Assembly: GCA_021163105.1 (NCBI GenBank)
Contig: JAGGXJ010000148.1
Location: 1 to 43,083 of the forward strand
Direction: 5' to 3'
Source of the DNA: Syntrophobacterales bacterium
GTDB taxonomy: Bacteria; Desulfobacterota; Syntrophia; Syntrophales; UBA2210
Length of the DNA stretch: 43,083 nt
This document shows, one piece after another, positions 26,560 through 43,083 of the stretch. The notes beneath the pieces are model-generated. The model did no database searches. It saw nothing but the letters and a program-made list of their open reading frames with translations, and was not told the DNA's origin. The stretch's first letter is position 1; every line of letters begins with the position of its first letter. The position numbers and the translations under genes were made by a program.

Positions 26560-27561
26560 ATGAAAGATATTATAAATAAAAAGAGAGCTCTCGATATTAT
26601 CAGCCGTTTTCACAGTTCGAAGGTGATGATAGTCGGAGACGTTATGATTGACCAGTTTATCTGGGGAAAGGTATCGCGTATTTCACCGGAGGCTCCTGTG
26701 CCCGTGGTGAAGGTCACATCTGAGAGCCTTCTCCTGGGTGGCTGTGCCAATGTGTTGAACAATGTGTTCTCTATGGGAGGAAAAGTTGCGGTCTCCGGCA
26801 TTGTCGGATCAGACAACATGGGCATCTGGCTGGTGGATAAGCTGGAAAAGATGAACATTGATACAGCCGGTATCATCGTGGAACATGGACGTCCCACCAT
26901 AGTAAAAACGAGAGTTGTTGCGCACAGCCAGCAGGTGGTAAGATTTGACAGAGAAGACAAAAGACCGGTTTCCAGGGACAGTCTTCAAAAAATAATAGAA
27001 TACGTAGACTCGATGAAAGATAGTCTGGGAGCCGTGGTTATCTCGGATTACAACAAGGGAGTATTTTCAGAAGAACTTGTTAATGGAATAAAGGGAATAA
27101 CATCGGAGAGGGGAATACTTTTGTGTATTGATCCCAAGCAGAGTGATTTTTCTCTTTATCGCGGATCTGACCTGATAACACCCAACCACCAGGAGATGGA
27201 ACGCGCGCTCGGCATGGAACTTGAGACCACTGATGATATTACAAAGGGTGGCAGGACGCTTATCAAGAGATTCGATTTCGGCGCCCTGCTGGTAACGAGG
27301 GGCGAAGAGGGAATGAGCCTCTTTGAAAATGACGGCAGCGTCACTCACATTCCGACTGTTGCAAGAAATGTCTTCGATGTAACCGGCGCCGGCGATACGG
27401 TGATAGGGGTATTTGCTCTTTGTGCCGCGGCGGGTGCAACATTCAAGGAGGCCTCTGCCCTGGCCAACCATGCAGCTGGTATCACTGTAGGCAAGGTGGG
27501 CACAGCGCCGGTCTATCAAAATGAGTTGAAAAAATATTATGAGCAAGCCAGCCCTTCCTGA
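26560..27561 (+). CDS. rfaE1: D-glycero-beta-D-manno-heptose-7-phosphate kinase (RfaE1, kinase domain only)
   Basis: 333 aa PfkB-type; VMIVGDVMIDQFIWGKVSRISPEAPVPVVKV, FDVTGAGDTVIGVFALCAAAG; no nucleotidyltransferase domain follows. Confidence 0.92.
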   Translation: MKDIINKKRALDIISRFHSSKVMIVGDVMIDQFIWGKVSRISPEAPVPVVKVTSESLLLGGCANVLNNVFSMGGKVAVSGIVGSDNMGIWLVDKLEKMNIDTAGIIVEHGRPTIVKTRVVAHSQQVVRFDREDKRPVSRDSLQKIIEYVDSMKDSLGAVVISDYNKGVFSEELVNGIKGITSERGILLCIDPKQSDFSLYRGSDLITPNHQEMERALGMELETTDDITKGGRTLIKRFDFGALLVTRGEEGMSLFENDGSVTHIPTVARNVFDVTGAGDTVIGVFALCAAAGATFKEASALANHAAGITVGKVGTAPVYQNELKKYYEQASPS

Positions 27562-28108
27562 ACCGGTGAAATTAATATCCAGCATATTTTCCGGAAGCAG
27601 AGACATATTGAACAAAACTATAATAAGCCTGTCGGAGAAATTTGGAAAGCTTGATTATATAAGCGCTCTTATTCCTTTTGAATATACCGATTACTACGCA
27701 AAGGAATCAGGGACTTCCCTTATCAGGCGGTTTATATCTTTTGAAAATCTTGTGTCGCCGGACACGCTTCCCGACATAAAGTTGTTCACAAACAAGGTGG
27801 AGGAAAACTTTATGAGAGATGGCAGCCGGCTTGTCAATATAGATCCGGGATATATATCACGAGCCCACCTGATTCTTGCCACCGGGAAGGCTTACACTCA
27901 CCGGCCATATATCAGGGATGGCATATATGCCGACCTGACGCTCATTTTTGTAAAACATACTTTTCGGAGTCTTGAGTGGACATACCCTGATTATTCAGAC
28001 AGAGACATGATAATGATGTTTAACAATATAAGAGAAAGGTACATGATTCAGGCTCAAGGGTTGAAAAATGATCAGATGCGGACCATGAGTTCTGAACAGG
28101 GAGAATAA
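27539..28108 (+). CDS. DUF4416 family protein
   Basis: 189 aa; PEPVKLISSIFSGSRDIL...IPFEYTDYYAKE...NIDPGYISRAHLILATGKAYTHRPYIRDGIYADLTLIF...FRSLEWTYPDY. Confidence 0.82.
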   Translation: MSKPALPEPVKLISSIFSGSRDILNKTIISLSEKFGKLDYISALIPFEYTDYYAKESGTSLIRRFISFENLVSPDTLPDIKLFTNKVEENFMRDGSRLVNIDPGYISRAHLILATGKAYTHRPYIRDGIYADLTLIFVKHTFRSLEWTYPDYSDRDMIMMFNNIRERYMIQAQGLKNDQMRTMSSEQGE

Positions 28109-28111
28109 TCT

Positions 28112-28996
28112 ATGATAAGAAGCATGACAGGCTATGGAAGATCGGAGTCAACTCTTGCGGGGAAAAAATTGATTGTTGAAATCAAATCTCTCAACCATAA
28201 AAACATGGAAAGCAGTATACGCCTACCTGTCTTTCTCGCACCCCTGGAGGTAGATATTAAAAAAAGAGCGGAGAAACGGATTTCGAGGGGAAGAGTTGAG
28301 ATAAACATCAGAATAGATTCAGATCCGGGCGCAAATGGTGGAGATAATCTGGAGGCAAATCTTCCCCTCATCAGCAGTTATTATTCCTTAATGACAGACC
28401 TGAAGGAGAGGTTCAATCTCAGTGGTGAGATAACACTCGACACACTTGTTAACCTGAAAGGGAGCATCCATGTTTCCGAGGTGGAAATTGACCCTGAAGA
28501 AGCATGGAATACAATTCGCGGAGCGCTGGATGATTCAGTCGATTCCCTGATACAGATGAAGGAAATTGAAGGCAAACTTCTTTACGAAGATTTTGTCACG
28601 CGCCTTGATACAGTCAGCGCTTGCATAAAAGAACTGGAGTCAAGAATTCCACAGGTGGCTGATGATTACCAGAAAAGACTTTCGGAGAGAATCCGGGAGC
28701 TGACAGACGGTATGGAATGTGACGAATCAAGGTTAATCCAGGAGGTCGCGATAATGGCTGAAAAGAGTGATATTACCGAAGAGATTGTACGTTTCAGAAG
28801 CCACATAAAGCAATTTGGCGAGATGCTGAACAGCGATATCGCTATAGGTAGAAAAATGGATTTCCTGCTTCAGGAAATGCACCGGGAAATAAATACAATA
28901 GGGTCCAAGAGCAACGATCTTACAATATCCGGCAATGTAATAGAGGTAAAGGCGGAACTTGCAAAGCTGCGAGAACAGGTGCAGAATATTGAGTAA
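28112..28996 (+). CDS. YicC/YloC family endoribonuclease
   Basis: 294 aa; MIRSMTGYGRSE, IEIKSLNHKNMES, C-terminal DFLLQEMHREINTIGSKSNDLTISGNVIEVKAELAKLREQVQNIE. Confidence 0.95.
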   Translation: MIRSMTGYGRSESTLAGKKLIVEIKSLNHKNMESSIRLPVFLAPLEVDIKKRAEKRISRGRVEINIRIDSDPGANGGDNLEANLPLISSYYSLMTDLKERFNLSGEITLDTLVNLKGSIHVSEVEIDPEEAWNTIRGALDDSVDSLIQMKEIEGKLLYEDFVTRLDTVSACIKELESRIPQVADDYQKRLSERIRELTDGMECDESRLIQEVAIMAEKSDITEEIVRFRSHIKQFGEMLNSDIAIGRKMDFLLQEMHREINTIGSKSNDLTISGNVIEVKAELAKLREQVQNIE

Positions 28997-29043
28997 GGTA
29001 CGGTTTTGAGTTAGAGTAAGAAATAAAATATTGGGATCATCAA

Positions 29044-29137
29044 AGTAACAGTTCACGGTTGTCGGTTCACAGTCTGAAACATTTTGGATATTGATTTCAA
29101 TGCTCTGTTTTTTCAACCGTGAATCCCGACGAGTCGG
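29044..29137. repeat. Imperfect palindromic repeat (family B, copy 2)
   Basis: AGTAACAGTTCACGGTTGTCGGTTCACAGTCTGAAACATTTTGGATATTGATTTCAATGCTCTGTTTTTTCAACCGTGAATCCC; matches family B at 17439-17576. Confidence 0.8.
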
Positions 29138-29153
29138 AATTATCCATTAAGGT

Positions 29154-29792
29154 TTGAACACCATGAACAATATGAACGCACAGGGACTTCTTATGGTCAT
29201 CTCCGCACCTTCAGGCGCGGGCAAGACCACTATATGCAAAAGGCTTCTGGATGAATTTCCCGACCTGTATTTTTCCGTGTCCTGCACTACGCGTCCTCCA
29301 CGGAAAGGGGAAAAAGACGGAAAAGATTACCACTTTATCTCCCTTGAGGAGTTCAAAAACAGGATAGAAAAGAACGAATTCGTAGAGTGGGAAAAAATCT
29401 ACGGCCAATTTTACGGCACGTTAAAGAAGGAGATAAATGACCTGATCGTAAAGGGTCATGACGTAATGCTGGACATAGATATCAAAGGGGCCGGCAATGT
29501 AAAGTCAATATATCCCGAAGGTGTGTTTATCTTCATCATGCCTCCATCTGTAGAAGTTCTGAAGGAGAGGTTGAAGAAACGCGGTTCAGAAACTGGGGAT
29601 GTTATAAAAATGCGTTTCAGCAGGATTATGGAAGAGGTGAGAGAAAATGAAAGGTATGATTATGTGATATTTAATGATATACTAAGCAGTTCTGTTGATA
29701 TAATGAGATCTATATATATAGCGGAGAAAAACAGGAGATCCCGGCTGAAAGCCAGGATAAACGATTTTTATTCAATAACCGGAGGTATATAA
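29154..29792 (+). CDS. gmk: Guanylate kinase
   Basis: 212 aa; LLMVISAPSGAGKTTICKRLL, SVSCTTRPPRKGEKDGKDYHFIS. Confidence 0.95.
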   Translation: MNTMNNMNAQGLLMVISAPSGAGKTTICKRLLDEFPDLYFSVSCTTRPPRKGEKDGKDYHFISLEEFKNRIEKNEFVEWEKIYGQFYGTLKKEINDLIVKGHDVMLDIDIKGAGNVKSIYPEGVFIFIMPPSVEVLKERLKKRGSETGDVIKMRFSRIMEEVRENERYDYVIFNDILSSSVDIMRSIYIAEKNRRSRLKARINDFYSITGGI

Positions 29793-29795
29793 CGC

Positions 29796-30074
29796 ATGGC
29801 AAGAATTACTGTAGAAGATTCTTTGGAAAAAGCAAAAAACAGATTTGCCCTGACACATCTTACTGTTCAAAGGACAAAGCAACTACTAAGGGGATCGAAC
29901 CCACTCAGCAAAAAGAAGGACAATCGGGAAATCGTTATCGCTTTGAGGGAGATAGCGGAAGAAAGGGTGCAATATTCTCATCCTGAGATTCTTAATGCCA
30001 AATCAGCAGATGTTGAAATCACTGAGTTCATAGAGAACAGCGCGGATGTTATCGAAGATGCAAGCGCCGAGTAA
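29796..30074 (+). CDS. rpoZ: DNA-directed RNA polymerase omega subunit
   Basis: 92 aa; MARITVEDSLEKAKNRFALTHLTVQRTKQL, directly after gmk. Confidence 0.92.
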   Translation: MARITVEDSLEKAKNRFALTHLTVQRTKQLLRGSNPLSKKKDNREIVIALREIAEERVQYSHPEILNAKSADVEITEFIENSADVIEDASAE

Positions 30075-30804
30075 AAACAATCGGGACAAACTGATATTCG
30101 CCCTTGACCTGGGAGAAGATATGAATGAGGCCATAAAATGGGCCGATCTCCTGAAGGATCATGTGGGAATGTTTAAGATAGGGAAGGAGGCATTTACCCG
30201 CTTCGGACCCTCTGTCGTCTCAAGGATAATGGAAAAGGGTGGAGAGGTCTTCCTCGACCTGAAGTTTCATGACATTCCAAACACCGTTGCAATGGCCTCC
30301 GAGGCCGCGGTAAAACTTGGTATTTCCATGTTCAATATACACGCACTCGGCGGGAGGGAGATGATGGAGCGAGCGGTAGATTCCGTCAGCAATGCTGCGA
30401 GAGTTATGGGAGCTGTTCCACCGGTGCTGCTCGCGGTAACCGTTCTTACAAGTCTGGATGATTCGGATCTTGAAGATATGGAGTTCAACTGTTCCACCAG
30501 AGAACTCGCACTGAAGCTCGCGGTATCAGCCAGAAAAGCAGGCGTTTCCGGAGTTGTGGCATCCGCCCGGGATGTAATCCCCATACGAGAGGCATGCGGA
30601 AAAGACTTTATCATTGTAACCCCGGGCATAAGACTGGGCAGCAAAGTGGCAGGCGACGACCAGAAAAGGGTGTTGACTCCGGGGGATGCTATTGCAATGG
30701 GCGCGGATTATATCGTAGTGGGCAGGCCAATAAGGTTGGCTGACGATCCGGTGGCTGTCGCGGACAAAATCACCGAAGAGATCTCCAGAGGACTCGCTGA
30801 TTAA
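30058..30804 (+). CDS. pyrF: Orotidine 5'-phosphate decarboxylase
   Basis: ORF 30046..30804; preferred start MQAPSKNNRDKLIFALDLG at 30058; VFLDLKFHDIPNTVA, VTPGIRLG, ADYIVVGRPI. Confidence 0.95.
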   Translation: MQAPSKNNRDKLIFALDLGEDMNEAIKWADLLKDHVGMFKIGKEAFTRFGPSVVSRIMEKGGEVFLDLKFHDIPNTVAMASEAAVKLGISMFNIHALGGREMMERAVDSVSNAARVMGAVPPVLLAVTVLTSLDDSDLEDMEFNCSTRELALKLAVSARKAGVSGVVASARDVIPIREACGKDFIIVTPGIRLGSKVAGDDQKRVLTPGDAIAMGADYIVVGRPIRLADDPVAVADKITEEISRGLAD

Positions 30805-30835
30805 GTGTTTCCAAGGTCCGGCCGGAGGAAAAACA

Positions 30836-31588
30836 ATGCAGATAGTCTATGGAATTCATCCGGTTGTTGAGACCCTCAGGGCCGGCGGAAAAATAGAGAA
30901 GGTTATCCTGCTTAAAGGGGGGAAACAGAGCAGTATCCGGGATATATTGAAAGTTACAACCCGGAGGAATGTGCCTGTAATCTTCAGAGACAGAGAACAT
31001 CTGGATACCACCGCTGGCACCAGTCATCATCAGGGTGTTGTTTGTGTATGCGAGGAGTTCCGGTATGCCGGCATGGATGAAGTCTTGGCCGATTGTAAAT
31101 CCCGGAAAAATGCTTTAATTCTTATACTTGACGGCATCATAGATCCCCAGAACCTTGGCTCGCTCATAAGGACGGCTCTCTGTTTTGGCGCGTCCGGTGT
31201 CGTTATCCCCGAAAACCGCGCTGCCTCTATCACCCCCGCCGTAGTCAAGGCTTCAGCGGGAGCGGCTATGCATCTTCCGGTTGTTAAAGTGGTAAATATA
31301 TCAAGGACAATCGACACCCTGAAAAAAGAAAACTTCTGGATATATGGTGCCGATGCCACAGGCGGGGAAAACTTGGACCCCCATGATTACAGCACTCACA
31401 AGGGTCTTGTAATGGGAAGCGAGGGAAAGGGGATAAGGCCCCTTGTCAGGGAAAAATGCGATTTTCTGATCTCCATACCCATGACAACTACTATTGATTC
31501 TTTGAATGTATCCGTATCCGGAGGCATTATTCTATATGAGATGACTCGTAATTGGAATTCCCTGAAAGCCAGGGAGAAAAGAGGGTAA
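30836..31588 (+). CDS. rlmB: 23S rRNA (guanosine-2'-O-)-methyltransferase RlmB (SpoU family)
   Basis: 250 aa; YGIHPVVETLRAGGKIEKV, LILDGIIDPQNLGSLIRTALCFGASGVVIPENRA, MGSEGKGIRPLVREKCDFLISIPM...LNVSVSGGIILYEM. Confidence 0.93.
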   Translation: MQIVYGIHPVVETLRAGGKIEKVILLKGGKQSSIRDILKVTTRRNVPVIFRDREHLDTTAGTSHHQGVVCVCEEFRYAGMDEVLADCKSRKNALILILDGIIDPQNLGSLIRTALCFGASGVVIPENRAASITPAVVKASAGAAMHLPVVKVVNISRTIDTLKKENFWIYGADATGGENLDPHDYSTHKGLVMGSEGKGIRPLVREKCDFLISIPMTTTIDSLNVSVSGGIILYEMTRNWNSLKAREKRG

Positions 31589-31590
31589 AT

Positions 31591-32799
31591 ATGCCTGTAT
31601 ATCTGTGGGAGGGCACGACAAAAAAGGGTGAGATCAAAAAAGGCGAAATGGAAGCCCCCGCTGAAAGTGCCGTTAGAATCCAGTTGCGTCGTCAGCGTAT
31701 CAGGCCGGGGAGCATAAAGAAAAAACCCAAGGATCTTTTCGAAAACATCCCTTTTCTACAACAAAAGGTCAGAGAAAAGGACATAGTTGTGTTTTCACGT
31801 CAGTTTGCCACCATGATCAATGCCGGGCTACCCATCATCCAGTGCCTGGAGCTACTGGGCGATGAGGAACAGAACAAAACCTTTGCAAAGATTATCAAAT
31901 CAATAAAAGAAGATATTGAAGGTGGAAGCTCTCTCTCGGAGGCCCTGAAAAAACATCAGGATGTATTCAATGATCTCTTCATAAATCTGGTTGCTGCCGG
32001 CGAGGCAGGTGGTATCTTGGACGTGATTCTTAATCGTCTGTCAGCGTATATGGAAAAGGCAATGAACCTGAAAAGAAAGGTGAAAGGGGCCATGACCTAC
32101 CCGATCAGTGTTCTCGTGATTGCCATAGCGGTTGTCATTCTGCTTCTGTATAAAGTGGTTCCCGTCTTTGATGATTTGTTTTCAAGTATGGGATCGGCGC
32201 TGCCGGGCCCCACACAGTTTCTCGTAGACATGAGCCGTTTTGTCCAAGGCAATATATTATATATAATAGGTTCTATTGTTGTTGCCGTCTTCATATTCAG
32301 AAAATATTACGGGACTGAAAGTGGAAGGCTCCGGATAGATCGCACGGTACTCAAGCTGCCTGTTTTTGGTATGCTACTCAAGAAGGTTGCCGTAGCAAAA
32401 TTTTCAAGAACCCTTTCCACCATGATGAGCAGTGGTGTTCCTATACTTGACGGGCTTGAAATTGTAAGCAAAACAGCGGGCAACAAGGTTGTCGAAAATG
32501 CCCTGATGAAGATAAGAAAGAGCATAAGCGAGGGCAAAACAATAGCGGAACCCCTGTCGGAATCAGGAATATTCCCTTCCATGGTTGTTTCCATGATATC
32601 AGTCGGTGAAAACACAGGCGCCCTTGATGCCATGCTGGAGAAGATCGCCGATTTTTACGATTCCGAGGTTGACACGGCGGTTGACGCAATGACTTCATTG
32701 CTTGAGCCCATAATGCTGGTATTTCTGGGTGGAGTTGTGGGAGGAATGATAATAGCCCTTTATCTTCCAATCTTTTCCATGGCGGGCGCAATCGGATAG
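31591..32799 (+). CDS. Type IV pilus/type II secretion inner-membrane platform protein (PilC/GspF family)
   Basis: ORF from 31552, preferred start MPVYLWEGTTKKGEIKKGEME at 31591; FSRQFATMINAGLPIIQCLELL, two GspF domains, ALYLPIFSMAGAIG C-terminus. Confidence 0.93.
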   Translation: MPVYLWEGTTKKGEIKKGEMEAPAESAVRIQLRRQRIRPGSIKKKPKDLFENIPFLQQKVREKDIVVFSRQFATMINAGLPIIQCLELLGDEEQNKTFAKIIKSIKEDIEGGSSLSEALKKHQDVFNDLFINLVAAGEAGGILDVILNRLSAYMEKAMNLKRKVKGAMTYPISVLVIAIAVVILLLYKVVPVFDDLFSSMGSALPGPTQFLVDMSRFVQGNILYIIGSIVVAVFIFRKYYGTESGRLRIDRTVLKLPVFGMLLKKVAVAKFSRTLSTMMSSGVPILDGLEIVSKTAGNKVVENALMKIRKSISEGKTIAEPLSESGIFPSMVVSMISVGENTGALDAMLEKIADFYDSEVDTAVDAMTSLLEPIMLVFLGGVVGGMIIALYLPIFSMAGAIG

Positions 32800-32818
32800 A
32801 ACAATAAGGGTTTAAAAA

Positions 32819-32895
32819 TGGTCGGGATGGCGCGATTTGAACGCGCGACCCCTGCGTCCCGAACGCAGTGCCCTACCAGACTGGGCCACATCCCG
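32819..32895 (-). tRNA. tRNA-Pro (anticodon CGG), CCA encoded
   Basis: Minus strand CGGGATGTGGCCCAGTCTGGTAGGGCACTGCGTTCGGGACGCAGGGGTCGCGCGTTCAAATCGCGCCATCCCGACCA; 7-bp acceptor CGGGATG/CATCCCG, anticodon stem CTGCG/CGCAG with loop TTCGGGA, T arm GCGCGTTCAAATCGCGC. Confidence 0.95.
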
Positions 32896-33050
32896 ACACC
32901 CCCCTGACTATATAATTTGTCCGCAGATGTCCATAAAAAAATGAAAAGAGCCGCAATATTCGCTAAAACAGCATCACAGCTTGTCTCGGGGCAGAGTTCA
33001 TGATATTTAGAAACCGCAGTTAGAAGGACAGGAAGAGAGGAACAGGCGGA

Positions 33051-33464
33051 GTGATAATATACGATCTTAAATGTGAAAAGAATCATATATTTGAGGGCTG
33101 GTTCAACGACCGTACGGCTTTTGAGGAGCAGAAAGAAAAAAAGCTCGTCACATGTCCGGTATGCGGAAGCTCAGATGTAGAAATAGCACCTTCCTCTATA
33201 ACGGTTATGGGTAAAGGGACCGGGAGATTGAATAAGAATAATAAAGATCTATCTCCTGCAAAGGCGCTCCGGATGTTCAATGAATATGTGGACAAAACAT
33301 TTGAAGACGTGGGCAACAAATTCGCGGAAGTCGCGCTTAAAATACACACAGGTGAGGAAGACAGCCGAAATATAAAGGGAACCACAACAAAAACGGAAGA
33401 AGATAATCTTAGAGAAGAAGGTGTCCCATTTGTAAAGATTCCCATACCGAAATTTGATAGTTAA
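33051..33464 (+). CDS. DUF1178 family protein
   Basis: 137 aa; MIIYDLKCEKNHIFEGWFNDRTAFEEQKEKKLVTCPVCGSSDVEIAPS (GTG start). Confidence 0.88.
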   Translation: MIIYDLKCEKNHIFEGWFNDRTAFEEQKEKKLVTCPVCGSSDVEIAPSSITVMGKGTGRLNKNNKDLSPAKALRMFNEYVDKTFEDVGNKFAEVALKIHTGEEDSRNIKGTTTKTEEDNLREEGVPFVKIPIPKFDS

Positions 33465-33626: not shown

Positions 33627-35936
33627 ATGAAAAAGAAATATAATAATATCCTGGATCTGATTGGCAACACCCCCATCGTAGAGATACGTAATCTTAATCC
33701 CAACAAAAATGTGAAGATATATGCGAAGCTGGAAGGACACAACCCCGGGGGGTCGATAAAGGACAGAACCGCTCTCTATATGATAGAAAAAGCGGAGGGA
33801 AAAGGATTACTTACCGCTGAAAAAACTGTTCTGGAAGCCACAAGCGGGAACACAGGTATAGGCCTCGCCCTGGTGGCTGCGGTAAAAGGATACAAAATCA
33901 CCCTTGTGCTTTCAGAGTCGGCCAGCGAGGAACGAAAGAAGATTTTAAAGGCCCTCGGTGCTGAATTGGTCTTGACTCCCACAAATCTCGGTACAGATGG
34001 GGCAATCGAAGTGGTCTATGAGATGTTGAGAGAACACCCCGATAAATATTTTGTTCCTGATCAACATAACAACGAAGATAACATTCTTGCCCACTACTAT
34101 GGCACGGCGGAGGAAATCTGGCACCAGACAGATAAAAAGGTAACAATGGTAGTGGCTGCACTGGGTACATCCGGCACTGCCATGGGCGTGTCCAGAAAAC
34201 TCAAGGAATATAATAAAAACATCAGAATTGTAGGCGTAGAACCATACCTTCACCATAAAATACAGGGTCTCAAAAATATGCAGGAGTCATACCGGCCGGG
34301 CATTTTTGACAGGGGACACTTGGATGAAAAGGCCAACATTCTGGATGATGACGCCTTCGAAATGGCAAGAAAACTCACGAGGGAGGAAGGAATTCTGGCA
34401 GGGATGAGTTCCGGCGCGGCGATGCACGTGGCCCTGGAAAAAGCCAGAGAGACGAAAGAAGGATTGATTGTGGTAATCTTCCCGGACAGCGGAGAAAGAT
34501 ATCTCAGCACAGAGCTCTTTGCGGATAGAGAAGAGACCTCGCTCTCTCTGTACAACACACTCACGAGAAACAAAGAATCTTTCAGGCCGATAGGCACAGA
34601 TCAGATACTCATACATTCATGCGGTCCGACCGTTCACGATATTCCTCACATAGGAACCTACCGACGCTTTGCTGTGTCGGATATGATATCCAGGTACTTG
34701 GAATTCAAGGGATACAAGGTCAAACATGTCTCCAATATAATAGACCTGGCCGACAGATCCATAAATGGTGCCGACAGAGCCGGTATGGACATCCGAAAAT
34801 TCACAAAGGAACACACTGAAACATTCTTCAGCGATCTGGACAAACTTAACATCAGCCACGATAATACCTACCCGGTAGCGAGTGAGAACGTCGATCTGAT
34901 GGTCAAGCTGGTCGAAAGGCTCGTGGGAAAGGGCTATGCCTACGAGAAATTGAAGTCTGTCTATTTTGACATATCCCGGCTCGACGACTACGGACTCCTG
35001 TCAAACATAGATCTGGCAAAGGTAAGACACTCAAGGACAGTAGATCAGGATAATTATGAAAAGGACAGTCCGGTTGACTTCACCCTCTTAAAGAGATCGA
35101 CTCTGACGGAGTTAAAGGGGGGTATATATTTCAAGACCAGGTGGGGGAATGTAAGGCCCGGCTGGCACCTTGAATGTGCGGCCCTGGCCATGGAATACCT
35201 GGCAGAGACCTTTGACATCTACATAAGCGGATCCGATATCATCTTCCCGCACTGTGAAAATGTCATGGCTATAGGAAAGGCTGCCACCGGAGAAAAACTC
35301 GCGAATTACTGGCTCGCCTCTGAACTTGTCATGATGGAAGGCAAGAAGATGTCTCGATCCACAGACAATTCTTTCACGGTAAGCGCTCTGGAGGCAAGGG
35401 GATATTCCGGTGGGGAAATCAGGTATTTTCTCCTCAGCTCTCACTACAGAAAACCGCTGACCTTTTCATTCGGCGCACTGGATACTGCATGCAATACAAT
35501 CAAAAGGCTGAACAACTTTATACAGAGATTGATACGCTTCGTTCCCGGAGACGGGCACACGGATGTGGACCAGCTTGTCTATGACGTCAGGAAGGGGTTT
35601 GCCGAAGCGATGGATGACGATTTCAATATCTCTGAAGCCCTTGCATGTGTATTCGAATTTGTCAGGAAGATAAATATTTCTCTGACCGGAAAACAGCTTA
35701 ACATCAAGCAGAGAGACATGATTCTCGATACTATGAGAGGAGTAAATTCCATTCTTCGTATAATGAATTTCGAGGAGGAAACGCTTGGCGAAGATGCCAC
35801 AAGGCTGATGGAAGAAAGAAAAAAGGCCAGGGCAGCCGGTAACTGGGAAAGATCCGATCACCTGAGAGAAAAACTTTCGACGATGGGAATAATTGTTCAC
35901 GATACACCGGAAGGCGTGATCTGGACATTGAAATAG
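33627..35936 (+). CDS. Fusion: cysteine synthase (PLP, CysK/CysM family) + cysteinyl-tRNA synthetase-like domain
   Basis: 769-aa uninterrupted ORF. N-half: LIGNTPIVEI, KLEGHNPGGSIKDRTAL, EATSGNTGIGLALVAA, GTSGTAMGVSRKL, FPDSGERYLSTELF. C-half: LIHSCGPTVHDIPHIGTYR, RPGWHLECAALAMEYL, IIFPHCENVMAI, KKMSRSTDNSFTV, C-terminal ARAAGNWERSDHLREKLSTMGIIVHDTPEGVIWTLK. Confidence 0.93.
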   Translation: MKKKYNNILDLIGNTPIVEIRNLNPNKNVKIYAKLEGHNPGGSIKDRTALYMIEKAEGKGLLTAEKTVLEATSGNTGIGLALVAAVKGYKITLVLSESASEERKKILKALGAELVLTPTNLGTDGAIEVVYEMLREHPDKYFVPDQHNNEDNILAHYYGTAEEIWHQTDKKVTMVVAALGTSGTAMGVSRKLKEYNKNIRIVGVEPYLHHKIQGLKNMQESYRPGIFDRGHLDEKANILDDDAFEMARKLTREEGILAGMSSGAAMHVALEKARETKEGLIVVIFPDSGERYLSTELFADREETSLSLYNTLTRNKESFRPIGTDQILIHSCGPTVHDIPHIGTYRRFAVSDMISRYLEFKGYKVKHVSNIIDLADRSINGADRAGMDIRKFTKEHTETFFSDLDKLNISHDNTYPVASENVDLMVKLVERLVGKGYAYEKLKSVYFDISRLDDYGLLSNIDLAKVRHSRTVDQDNYEKDSPVDFTLLKRSTLTELKGGIYFKTRWGNVRPGWHLECAALAMEYLAETFDIYISGSDIIFPHCENVMAIGKAATGEKLANYWLASELVMMEGKKMSRSTDNSFTVSALEARGYSGGEIRYFLLSSHYRKPLTFSFGALDTACNTIKRLNNFIQRLIRFVPGDGHTDVDQLVYDVRKGFAEAMDDDFNISEALACVFEFVRKINISLTGKQLNIKQRDMILDTMRGVNSILRIMNFEEETLGEDATRLMEERKKARAAGNWERSDHLREKLSTMGIIVHDTPEGVIWTLK

Positions 35937-39154: not shown

Positions 39155-39793
39155 CTAATCTGAAACTTCCAGTTTCCCCGTCTCTTCCATCTCTTTCAAC
39201 CACTTTGGGCACTGTTTTTCCGCCCAGGATCTTGTGACCCATCCTGTCAGGATAGCGGACACAGAACCGGGAACGCCGACAGTCCCCAGATATAAATGGA
39301 CAAAAAAGAATGGGAATATAACAAAGAATCCGAGGGCATGCAGGGGGTACATCCACCTCACCAGCTCCACCGGAAAACCAAGAGGAAACCACATAATCAA
39401 CCCGGTGACCGACATGACAACCCCGAAAAATGCCACTGCCCAGAAGAATGCCTTCTGGCCGGGATTGTATTTTCCTGTTTCGGGGACTTTGTCGACATGC
39501 CACAGATAACCACCCGCCACCCTAATCCACTCCAGATCCTCGGGAAACTTGAATATACCCGCTTCTTTCCACCATATTAATATGGCAAAGAGAAGTGACG
39601 GGATGAACACAAGCCCGGAGAAGTTGTGAATCAGTTTCAGATTCTTCAATCCTCCAACGGGAATCGCTAAAAAATTGAACGAATGGAACATCATCCCCAG
39701 ACCCGTAACCATAAGGATCAGACAAGAAATAGCCATACACCAGTGCACTATCCTCTCAAACCCATCAGATGCTTTTATCATTCCTTTTTTCAT
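39155..39793 (-). CDS. Formate dehydrogenase gamma subunit (cytochrome b)
   Basis: 212 aa; DGFERIVHWCMAISCLILMVTGLGMMF, LKLIHNFSGLVFIPSLLFAI, YPLHALGFFVIFPFFFVHLYLGTVGVPGSVSAILTGWV. Confidence 0.9.
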   Translation of the reverse strand: MKKGMIKASDGFERIVHWCMAISCLILMVTGLGMMFHSFNFLAIPVGGLKNLKLIHNFSGLVFIPSLLFAILIWWKEAGIFKFPEDLEWIRVAGGYLWHVDKVPETGKYNPGQKAFFWAVAFFGVVMSVTGLIMWFPLGFPVELVRWMYPLHALGFFVIFPFFFVHLYLGTVGVPGSVSAILTGWVTRSWAEKQCPKWLKEMEETGKLEVSD

Positions 39794-39794
39794 C

Positions 39795-40592
39795 TTATTC
39801 GCCTCCTTCCCTGCTTACCTGATCCCCATCGCCGCTTGTATCCTTGGGGCCATGGGTAATGTAGTGTAAGAAGGATCCCGCAAGTACGCCACCCGCCGCA
39901 AGCAGGCTGAGTGGTTTGAGCCAGTCTTTCCAGGCAATAACTGAAAGCGGCACTCTCGGTTTTTCCGGAAGCTTGTCGTAGACGCCTGCTTTTTCCGGAA
40001 GGACATACACCATGTGGGTTCCATCCACAAATTTGTCGCCATATACGGAGGCATTACCGCCAAGCTCCCTGGCCCTCTCATATGCCACCTCCAGCATCTC
40101 AGTCTTGTCGCCAAACATAAGGGCGCCGGTCGGGCAGGCTTTGACACATGCCGGATCCATCGCGTTGTCTATCCTGGAATAACACATATCACACTTGAAG
40201 ACCTTGTCGGTCTCAGGATCATATTTGGGTACTTCGAATGGACACGCAGAGACGCACTCCTTACATCCTATGCACTTGCTATTGTCAAGGGCGACCGTGC
40301 CGTATTTCGTATGGGAAAGAGCGCCGCTCGGGCACACTTTCACGCAGGCCGCATCGGTGCAGTGCATGCAGGCACTATGCCTGAACAGCCAGTCAACTCC
40401 ACCATTTCCATCAGATATCTCCTGAAATCTTATGATATTCCAGGTGTTTGTCTGAAGATCAGGCGGGTTCTGGTATGTCCCGGTGTTGAATGTCTGTTTT
40501 GCCGGCAACTGGTTCCACTGTTTACATGCCAGCTGACAGGCTCTACAGCCGGTACACTTTGAAAGATCACACAGTTTGATTTTTTCAGACAT
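39795..40592 (-). CDS. Formate dehydrogenase beta subunit (4Fe-4S ferredoxin-type)
   Basis: 265 aa; CTGCRACQLACKQWN, CMHCTDAACVKVCPSGAL, CIGCKECVSACPFEVP, CDMCYSRIDNAMDPACVKACPTGAL; C-terminal TM anchor. Confidence 0.93.
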   Translation of the reverse strand: MSEKIKLCDLSKCTGCRACQLACKQWNQLPAKQTFNTGTYQNPPDLQTNTWNIIRFQEISDGNGGVDWLFRHSACMHCTDAACVKVCPSGALSHTKYGTVALDNSKCIGCKECVSACPFEVPKYDPETDKVFKCDMCYSRIDNAMDPACVKACPTGALMFGDKTEMLEVAYERARELGGNASVYGDKFVDGTHMVYVLPEKAGVYDKLPEKPRVPLSVIAWKDWLKPLSLLAAGGVLAGSFLHYITHGPKDTSGDGDQVSREGGE

Positions 40593-40595
40593 AGC

Positions 40596-43083
40596 TTACA
40601 CCCCCTTCCTTTCGACATTTACCATGAAGGCCTTGCTCTCCGGTATCATGGTATTGGCGTCTCCGATAAACGGAGTAACAATGTTGGCGGAATCACCAAA
40701 GGTAAAGATCTCAGGTTTTTTGTCACCATGCACATATTCTCTCATCTTTGTGGTAATCCAGCCGTAGTGCCATGGAATCCCGACCTCATGGACGATATTA
40801 CCGTCTATCTTGAATGGTTTCCATCTGCCTGTCACAATTGCCACGGCATCAACCTGTCCCCTTATGGACTTCACGGTGACTATCTCGCCGTTTTTGATCT
40901 TCTTGTTTTTGGCAAGCTCAACGCCGATCTCCACAAACATGCCGGGTTGCATCTCCGCTAACCATGGACACCACCTTGTCATAAGGCCGGTCTGCCAGTG
41001 TTCGCTCACACGATAGGTTGAACAGATAATCGGGAATCTCGGATCGCAGGTAGCCCTCGCGTCCACGCTTGTCCCCGTTCCTTCTCTGTCCCATCTCTTG
41101 ATCGTGGGATTGACAAGCTGCGGTGACATAATATTCTTTTCAACGGGACATTCCAGCGGTTCATAGTGTTCCGGGAATGGCCCGTCAGCCCGCCCCGGAC
41201 CGAAGATAGCGCCGACACCATTCGGTTTCATGATGAATGGAGGCCTGCCGGAACCCGGCGCGGCGACGCCATCTGGAACATCGCCAACCCACTTGGAGCC
41301 GTTCCAGAAGATGACGGGATGTTTCTCGTCCCACGGTTTCCCCGTTTCAGGATCAACGGAAGCGCCGTTATAAATGATCCTGCGGTTTACAGGCCAGCAC
41401 CATGCCCACTCGGAATAGAGCCCGATGCCGGAAGAGTCTTTTCCTCCACGCCTTGCGGCCATATTGCCTTTTTCCGTATAGGAATTGCAGTAGAGCCAGT
41501 TTCCTGAAGAGGTAGAACCGTCATCCTGCAGATATGCGAAGCTGGGAACAAGGGTACCTTTCTTGAATAACTTGCCCTTGACCGTGGTATCTTTCAGGAA
41601 ATAGCCGTTGATCTCTTTGGCGATATAATTTGTGTCCAGATGCCGGATCTTGCCGGTCGGACTCTTCGGACCATAATCCCAGGTCATCTCGGTGATGGCC
41701 TCTTTCAGTGGGCCACCTTCCTTTTCGTACAGACCTTTGATCCTGTAGTAAAGCTCCGAAATGATCTCACCATCGGGCATCGCGACGCCTGGTGAATCAA
41801 CTGCCTTGTATCTCCACTGCATCCAGCGACCGCTATTTGTTATGCTCCCCTCTTTCTCAATCGAAGCAGCGCAGGGAAGCATGAAGACCTCCGTCTTTAT
41901 CTTCTTCGGATCCATATCGGGTCCCTTCCAGAAGGATCCCGTCTCGCTGTCGAAGATATTGACATTGACCATCCAGTCCAGCTTGCCCAAGGCCTGCCGG
42001 GTCTTGTTGGAGCTTGCGCCGCTGCACGCGGGGTTCTGCCCCCACGCGAAGAAGCCAGTGAACTTCTCCTTGTACATCGCGTCGAAGAGGCTGAGCCAGG
42101 AGTAGTTCTCACCATCGTCCAGTTTGGGCAGATATGAGTAGGCATCTTCCAGGGAAACACCCGCTCCATAGTGGGCTCGGAGAAGACTCGCCGAATACTT
42201 AGGGTAATTTTTCCACCAGTTAAGACTCTGCGGCTCCTTCGTTTTGGGTGTATATTTGGTGTCATACGCGGCCAGTGTAGGTTGAGACGCCTTGGGAGTT
42301 TTCAGGTATCCGGGCAGGATATGGAAAAGGAGGCAATGATCGGTGGAACCCTGCACGTTGGACTCGCCCCTGAGGGCATTGACGCCGCCGCCGGCCACGC
42401 CCATGTTACCCAAGAGGAGCTGAATAATGCTCATCGTCCTGATATTCTGCACACCGACTGTATGCTGGGTCCATCCCATGGCGTACATAATTGTTCCGGC
42501 TTTCCCAACTTTGCCGGATTTCGAATATTCTTTATAGACCTCAAGGAGTTTCTCTTTCGGTGTGCCGGTAATTCTGGATACGATATCCAGGTTATACCGC
42601 GAATAATGTTTCTTCAGGAGCTGATAAACACAGTTGGGATCTTTGAGACTCTTGTCCTTTTTGATTACACCGCTCGCGTCCTTCTGGAATGACCACGAGG
42701 ATTTATCGTACTTCGCATTGTTGAGACCGGAGAACACGCCATCATTATCTCCGGGAAGCTTGAATCCTGGATTTACCAGAAATGGAGCATTGGTATAATA
42801 CTTTACATATTTTTTCTGTATAAGCTTGTTATCCAGTATATATTTGATCATACCACCCAGGAAAGCTATGTCGCTTCCCGATCTCAGGGAGGCATAAATG
42901 TCAGCCTTCGAGGAGGTCTGTGTAAATCTTGGGTCTACACTGATCAGCTTCGCGCCCCGCCCCATAGCTTCTGTGACATACTTGAATGAAATGGGGTGAT
43001 TGGAAGCCGCGTTACTTCCCATAATCAATATACAATCGCTGTTTGCAATATCATTCCAGTGATTGGTCATCGCCCCGCGTCCG
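40596..43083 (-). CDS. Formate dehydrogenase alpha subunit (FDH-N/FDH-O type molybdopterin enzyme), 5' end truncated by window edge
   Basis: Frame stays open past 43070 to the edge: GRGAMTNHWNDIANSDCILIMGSNAASNHP; GWTQHTVGVQNIRTMSIIQLLLGNMGVAGGGVNALRGESNVQGSTD. Confidence 0.93.
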   Translation of the reverse strand, partial: GRGAMTNHWNDIANSDCILIMGSNAASNHPISFKYVTEAMGRGAKLISVDPRFTQTSSKADIYASLRSGSDIAFLGGMIKYILDNKLIQKKYVKYYTNAPFLVNPGFKLPGDNDGVFSGLNNAKYDKSSWSFQKDASGVIKKDKSLKDPNCVYQLLKKHYSRYNLDIVSRITGTPKEKLLEVYKEYSKSGKVGKAGTIMYAMGWTQHTVGVQNIRTMSIIQLLLGNMGVAGGGVNALRGESNVQGSTDHCLLFHILPGYLKTPKASQPTLAAYDTKYTPKTKEPQSLNWWKNYPKYSASLLRAHYGAGVSLEDAYSYLPKLDDGENYSWLSLFDAMYKEKFTGFFAWGQNPACSGASSNKTRQALGKLDWMVNVNIFDSETGSFWKGPDMDPKKIKTEVFMLPCAASIEKEGSITNSGRWMQWRYKAVDSPGVAMPDGEIISELYYRIKGLYEKEGGPLKEAITEMTWDYGPKSPTGKIRHLDTNYIAKEINGYFLKDTTVKGKLFKKGTLVPSFAYLQDDGSTSSGNWLYCNSYTEKGNMAARRGGKDSSGIGLYSEWAWCWPVNRRIIYNGASVDPETGKPWDEKHPVIFWNGSKWVGDVPDGVAAPGSGRPPFIMKPNGVGAIFGPGRADGPFPEHYEPLECPVEKNIMSPQLVNPTIKRWDREGTGTSVDARATCDPRFPIICSTYRVSEHWQTGLMTRWCPWLAEMQPGMFVEIGVELAKNKKIKNGEIVTVKSIRGQVDAVAIVTGRWKPFKIDGNIVHEVGIPWHYGWITTKMREYVHGDKKPEIFTFGDSANIVTPFIGDANTMIPESKAFMVNVERKGV

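Follow-up and report, generated by a model that had tools for sequence, protein, structure and literature searches.

Analysis of a 43,083-nucleotide stretch of a contig of a Syntrophobacterales bacterium (JAGGXJ010000148.1, positions 1 to 43,083, the whole stretch being referred to below as the window) revealed a gene in which an intact PLP-dependent cysteine synthase is fused in frame to a degenerate cysteinyl-tRNA synthetase (CysRS)-like region. Because the loading site of this region is worn down and its tRNA-recognition part is retained, we propose with moderate confidence, on the basis of sequence, that the protein is a cysteine synthase with a CysRS-derived domain that binds tRNA-Cys without charging it and serves as a charging sensor or regulator; the two-part protein is probably mono-catalytic. 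According to this proposal, the N-terminal half would supply the cell with cysteine by combining sulfide with an activated serine, which is most likely O-phosphoserine, while the C-terminal half, a pseudo-synthetase, would recognize tRNA-Cys via its anticodon and charge it inefficiently or, in many lineages, not at all. Upon cysteine shortage, uncharged tRNA-Cys would dock on the C-terminal half and change the activity of the synthase, a coupling whose existence and direction are both part of the proposal. If correct, a biosynthetic enzyme would read its own tRNA in addition to, or in place of, the free end product, and amino acid supply would be tied to translation within one protein, with no need for a transcription step.

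Architecture and distribution of the fused protein

The single uninterrupted frame noted in a preliminary description of the window was confirmed (Table 1). Pfam matches comprise PALP (residues 9-287, 243 bits) and tRNA-synt_1e (319-622, 271 bits), followed on the C-terminal side by DALR_2 and CysS_C, and both halves exceed the NCBI subfamily/equivalog cut-offs, with 358 bits for cysKM (TIGR01136; cut-off 344) and 384 bits for cysS (TIGR00435; cut-off 340). These matches and the synthase motifs, which are present as first quoted, agree with the earlier reading of a full PLP cysteine synthase joined to a full-length CysRS-like region including its C-terminal tail, the two halves being functionally adjacent, one on the side of cysteine synthesis and the other on that of cysteine-tRNA.

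Table 1 Features of the fusion gene in the window.
Feature	Position	Strand	Details
Complete fusion ORF	33627..35936	+	ATG to TAG, 769 aa, no internal stops
Cysteine-synthase half (residues 5-300), CysM-like	33639..34526	+	K45 (PLP lysine), SGNTG 73-77, GTSGT 180-184, S261, D287
GLKN (214-217), substrate-loop motif	34266..34277	+	common to Nitrospirota standalone enzymes
CysRS-like catalytic domain (residues 306-622), degenerate	34542..35492	+	
HIGH-equivalent, HIGT (341-344)	34647..34658	+	
KMSKS-equivalent, KMSRS (574-578)	35346..35360	+	
DALR_2 domain (658-709)	35598..35753	+	Pfam
CysS_C anticodon-binding domain (720-766)	35784..35924	+	R731, R735, W740, D744, R747, D759

The source genome is a 2.0-Mb draft in 154 contigs with a completeness of 97.5%. 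An assembly artefact was rejected, since the same in-frame fusion is conserved in more than 100 independent genomes, of which several consist of a single contig, and no stop separates the domains in them. A near full-length fused frame was found in 117 of the 155 genomes of the host's order (Syntrophales), and about a dozen further genomes of the order carry pieces of it, mostly at contig ends. At the level of the phylum (Desulfobacterota), at least 150 of 395 sampled genomes contain the fusion at identities from 44% upwards; the overall range is 41-87%, with the most divergent fusions at approximately 41-43%. Named relatives bearing it are labelled Syntrophaceae and Deltaproteobacteria. At the thresholds used, samples of 118 Nitrospirota genomes, 101 Chloroflexota genomes and 97 genomes from a third phylum yielded no fusion, and such empty samples do not amount to proof of absence.

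Phylogenetic analysis placed the C-terminal halves in one clade separate from all canonical CysRSs (support 1.0), and the two halves co-evolve (distance correlation 0.78), the slower of them being the synthase half. Thus, the fusion is most simply explained as an old protein of single origin that has been inherited as a unit. In one genome (G166, locus L177) the CysRS part is divided between two frames, the second of which contains an in-frame TGA, possibly reflecting a degrading copy or a sequencing error.

No description of the fusion was found in the open-access literature, most subscription journals and preprints lying outside the scope of the search, nor is it mentioned in the passages found in studies of CysRS paralogues and of cysteine coding (PMC9437257, PMC8762117, PMC5424206, PMC2922099). 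As the architecture is probably visible in domain-architecture databases, any claim of novelty is limited to the functional description.

Synthase half and cysteine supply

The catalytic set of the synthase (PLP lysine, SGNTG, GT.GT loop and cofactor Ser) is invariant in 81 of 81 fusions, which together with the TIGR01136 score places the N-terminal half among the PLP cysteine synthases (CysK/CysM). Its best score among the specific NCBI models is that of CysM. The substrate loop of the fusions reads IQGLKNMxES and that of standalone CysK from the same phylum IQGI---GAGF; at the GLKN position, CysE-partnered CysK shows GI---GAGF. Standalone synthases of Nitrospirota (L251-L267) are 56-60% identical to the N-terminal half and likewise possess the GLKN loop; no CysRS match was found beside them in the seven regions examined.

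In 16 genomes, including the source genome, no strong cysKM match exists besides the fusion (G000, G021, G090, G091, G116, G144, G145, G153, G180, G189, G215, G248, G249, G346, G354 and G463). The search for a second cysteine synthase in the source genome therefore came back empty, as did that for the serine acetyltransferase CysE, which is absent from all 16 genomes (best matches 24-77 bits). CysE scores of 160-166 bits were obtained in seven genomes that have a separate cysK besides the fusion (G073, G035, G305, G405, G412, G443 and G500), and in several of these cysE adjoins that cysK. PF01053, the Cys/Met transsulfuration family, is lacking in 13 of the 15 sole-synthase genomes checked, while G021 and G354 have one member each. 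Without CysE, a lone fusion must use something other than CysE-made O-acetylserine (OAS).

Judging from these sequences, the N-terminal half is probably a catalytically active PLP cysteine synthase and belongs to the CysM/O-phosphoserine sulfhydrylase type, and O-phosphoserine is the probable substrate wherever the fusion is the sole synthase. M. tuberculosis CysM (3dki/3dwg), an O-phosphoserine sulfhydrylase, belongs to the same fold-type II and has the same long substrate loop, the two spans being of equal length; the CysRS-like domain sets the fusion apart from it. The assignment is based on the absence of CysE combined with a fitting loop type, a loop whose length is shared with the OAS-using CysM enzymes of E. 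coli and Salmonella.

A separate canonical CysRS was present in all 50 genomes of a panel picked by hand for completeness, and the source genome encodes an ordinary CysRS as well as a normal tRNA-Cys(GCA). The fusion as the cell's sole CysRS was therefore rejected, and translation in these genomes has its own canonical enzyme. As classical CysE feedback is absent from the anaerobes without CysE, a sensor function of the fusion could explain cysteine control in these organisms. Should the sensor model prove wrong, labelling as "cysteine--tRNA ligase" by automatic annotation may still mask what is probably the sole cysteine synthase in many genomes of the phylum, a point of importance for metabolic models.

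Adenylation site and anticodon-binding domain

Calling the CysRS half divergent, as was done initially, turned out to be an understatement. The window protein shows HIGT for HIGH/HIGN, KMSRS for KMSKS, RSING for KIIKR and PHCENV for PHHENE, its cysteine-pocket Thr is replaced by Ile (Ile or Val in many fusions), and its zinc site retains C332, C517 and H542 but has V546. Both KMSKS lysines are kept in 0 of 81 fusions (KMSRS in 53), HxG[HN] in 14, and HIGH and KMSKS are both lost in 13, compared with KMSKS in 100 and His at the first HIGH position in 103 of 104 canonical reference CysRSs. The zinc Cys/Cys/His triad occurs in 73 of 81 fusions and all four ligands (E/D at 546) in 22; several lineages that keep the fusion have lost zinc ligands along with HIGH and KMSKS. 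Neither the HIGH/KMSKS signature of a class I CysRS nor its Cys-Cys-His-Glu zinc site is therefore a general property of the fusions. Invariant residues specific to them are R347, S444, R490, L496 and G499, with K441 and K497 nearly so.

The preliminary description had suggested a genuine second CysRS that makes cysteine, loads it onto tRNA-Cys and channels the product. Models computed with AlphaFold2 for the window protein (pLDDT 89.4, pTM 0.75) and for a fusion from a degenerate lineage (pLDDT 89.0, pTM 0.68) do show a full CysRS fold with anticodon domain, the relative placement of the two halves being uncertain at these pTM values, and Foldseek ranked the CysRS:tRNA-Cys complex 1u0b first for the former and second for the latter. 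The whole protein also passes the cysS cut-off, and HxG, KMSRS and the zinc triad occur together in 51 of 81 fusions including that of the window, so that some adenylation or cysteine binding may persist in the window's own lineage. However, channelling of cysteine into tRNA charging presupposes a working synthetase, and the lack of an intact KMSKS lysine pair throughout, the rarity of HxG[HN], the altered pocket, the missing zinc Glu in most fusions and the canonical CysRS across the panel speak against one, as do whole lineages that keep the fusion with the adenylation site destroyed. The KMSKS loop is broken in G463, G180 and G215, which have neither a PF01053 enzyme nor any cysteine synthase besides the fusion, and this makes charging an unlikely reason for retention of the domain. 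We consequently regard a second CysRS as improbable. The persulfide formation suggested initially found no support either, and a persulfide synthase acting via KIIKR was rejected: this activity of CysRS reportedly depends on lysines of the KIIKR and KMSKS motifs, which read RSING and KMSRS here, both KIIKR lysines being kept in 5 of 81 fusions versus 36 of 104 canonical CysRSs.

Alternatively, the C-terminal half could load or present a serine derivative on tRNA-Cys for conversion to Cys-tRNA by the PLP half, a one-protein analogue of SepRS-SepCysS. The altered amino acid pocket, the retained tRNA recognition, the lack of CysE and the probable O-phosphoserine type of the PLP half would fit such a pathway; the degenerate adenylation site in the sole-synthase genomes G180, G215 and G463 and the presence of canonical CysRS argue against it, and we consider it very unlikely.

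The anticodon-binding domain presents a different picture. In E. coli CysRS, G34 of tRNA-Cys is contacted by R423, R427, W432 and D436 (PMC12684709), which align with R731, R735, W740 and D744 of the window protein, next to a further conserved pair, R747 and D759 (R439 and D451 in E. coli numbering). R731, R/K735, an aromatic residue at 740, D744, R747 and D759 are present in 81 of 81 fusions, i.e. the tRNA-Cys anticodon-reading set is complete in each of them, the stretch that carries it being among the most variable of the protein. The hydrophobic surroundings are less conserved than these polar contacts (A734 in 60, I746 in 42 and W766 in 67 of 81), and the seven most degenerate fusions keep 55% of the positions conserved in canonical CysRS in the catalytic domain versus 87% in CysS_C. 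The Arg/Asp set could in part be structural.

Relation to known systems and genomic context

Compared with bacterial CysRS (TIGR00435; 1u0b), the fusion shares the domain plan, including DALR and anticodon-binding domains, and the G34-reading residues, but its KMSKS is never intact, HIGH is altered, the zinc Glu and pocket Thr are mostly lost, and a canonical CysRS always accompanies it in the 50-genome panel. HisZ (PMC9437257) offers a precedent for a synthetase paralogue joined to a biosynthetic enzyme of the same amino acid; it has no adenylation activity, much as the adenylation motifs of the fusion have decayed at the sequence level, whereas HisZ is a separate subunit, of class II and a sensor of free histidine. 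By analogy, cysteine bound at the zinc site might regulate the synthase by feedback, tRNA playing no part. The frequent Cys/Cys/His triad, which is also the three-ligand set of MshC (PMC9736012), would support such a free-cysteine sensor, but it does not account for an anticodon set that is invariant while the rest of its domain varies, and several lineages have lost the zinc ligands. We judge it unlikely overall, and it is the alternative least readily dismissed in lineages with the triad.

MshC itself, a CysRS paralogue with a Cys/Cys/His zinc site, raises the possibility of a ligase that joins activated cysteine to a small molecule to give an unknown thiol. The fusion does match TIGR03447, at 195 bits against a cut-off of 485; in contrast to MshC, which has an intact KMSKS and lacks the CysRS anticodon domain, it has lost KMSKS and conserved CysS_C, and conserved biosynthetic neighbors were not found across the phylum, leaving a ligase hardly probable. 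A pseudo-CysRS that holds the synthase close to tRNA-Cys or canonical CysRS for local hand-over of cysteine, with no allostery, draws on the same evidence as the sensor model and cannot be separated from it by sequence; we assign this scaffold a low probability.

The proposed tRNA-sensing synthase resembles GCN2, whose HisRS-like domain binds uncharged tRNA (PMC4335047), in uniting a pseudo-synthetase domain and another enzyme in one chain. For the fusion tRNA binding is a proposal, and GCN2 is a eukaryotic kinase whereas the fusion pairs a metabolic enzyme with a class I synthetase. That tRNA-Cys charging, read by the built-in pseudo-CysRS, directly determines how fast cysteine is made across the phylum, as a bacterial metabolic counterpart of GCN2, is a broader idea that we put forward tentatively and with some doubt.

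CysRS* of Desulfobacterales, described as a noncanonical CysRS that serves SelC* and is devoid of an anticodon domain (Mukai 2017b, in PMC9437257), comes from the same bacterial group. CysRS* is unfused, and on that description its lack of an anticodon domain marks it as a different protein, so that an identity with the fusion was rejected. Four genomes (G009, G088, G114 and G500) contain a third CysRS-like ORF of approximately 400 aa without an anticodon domain, three of them with an in-frame TGA or TAG, which fits CysRS* as described by Mukai et al.

A dedicated operon or tRNA neighbor that would explain the function was rejected, as only order-level synteny with housekeeping genes was observed; no partner gene conserved across the phylum and no tRNA-Cys near the fusion were found. 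A pfkB-DUF4416-YicC-gmk-pyrF-SpoU methylase-T2SSF-DUF1178 run of housekeeping-type genes (26560-33464) leads to the fusion, its order being conserved within the order and not across the phylum. A tRNA-Pro (CGG) lies upstream on the opposite strand (32819-32895, minus) and occupies that place in nearly all genomes of the order examined. Further along the window (39155-43070, minus strand), ORF reading alone indicated a molybdopterin-type dehydrogenase set (cytochrome b, 4Fe-4S subunit and an 824-aa subunit) adjoined by an FdhE-like protein.
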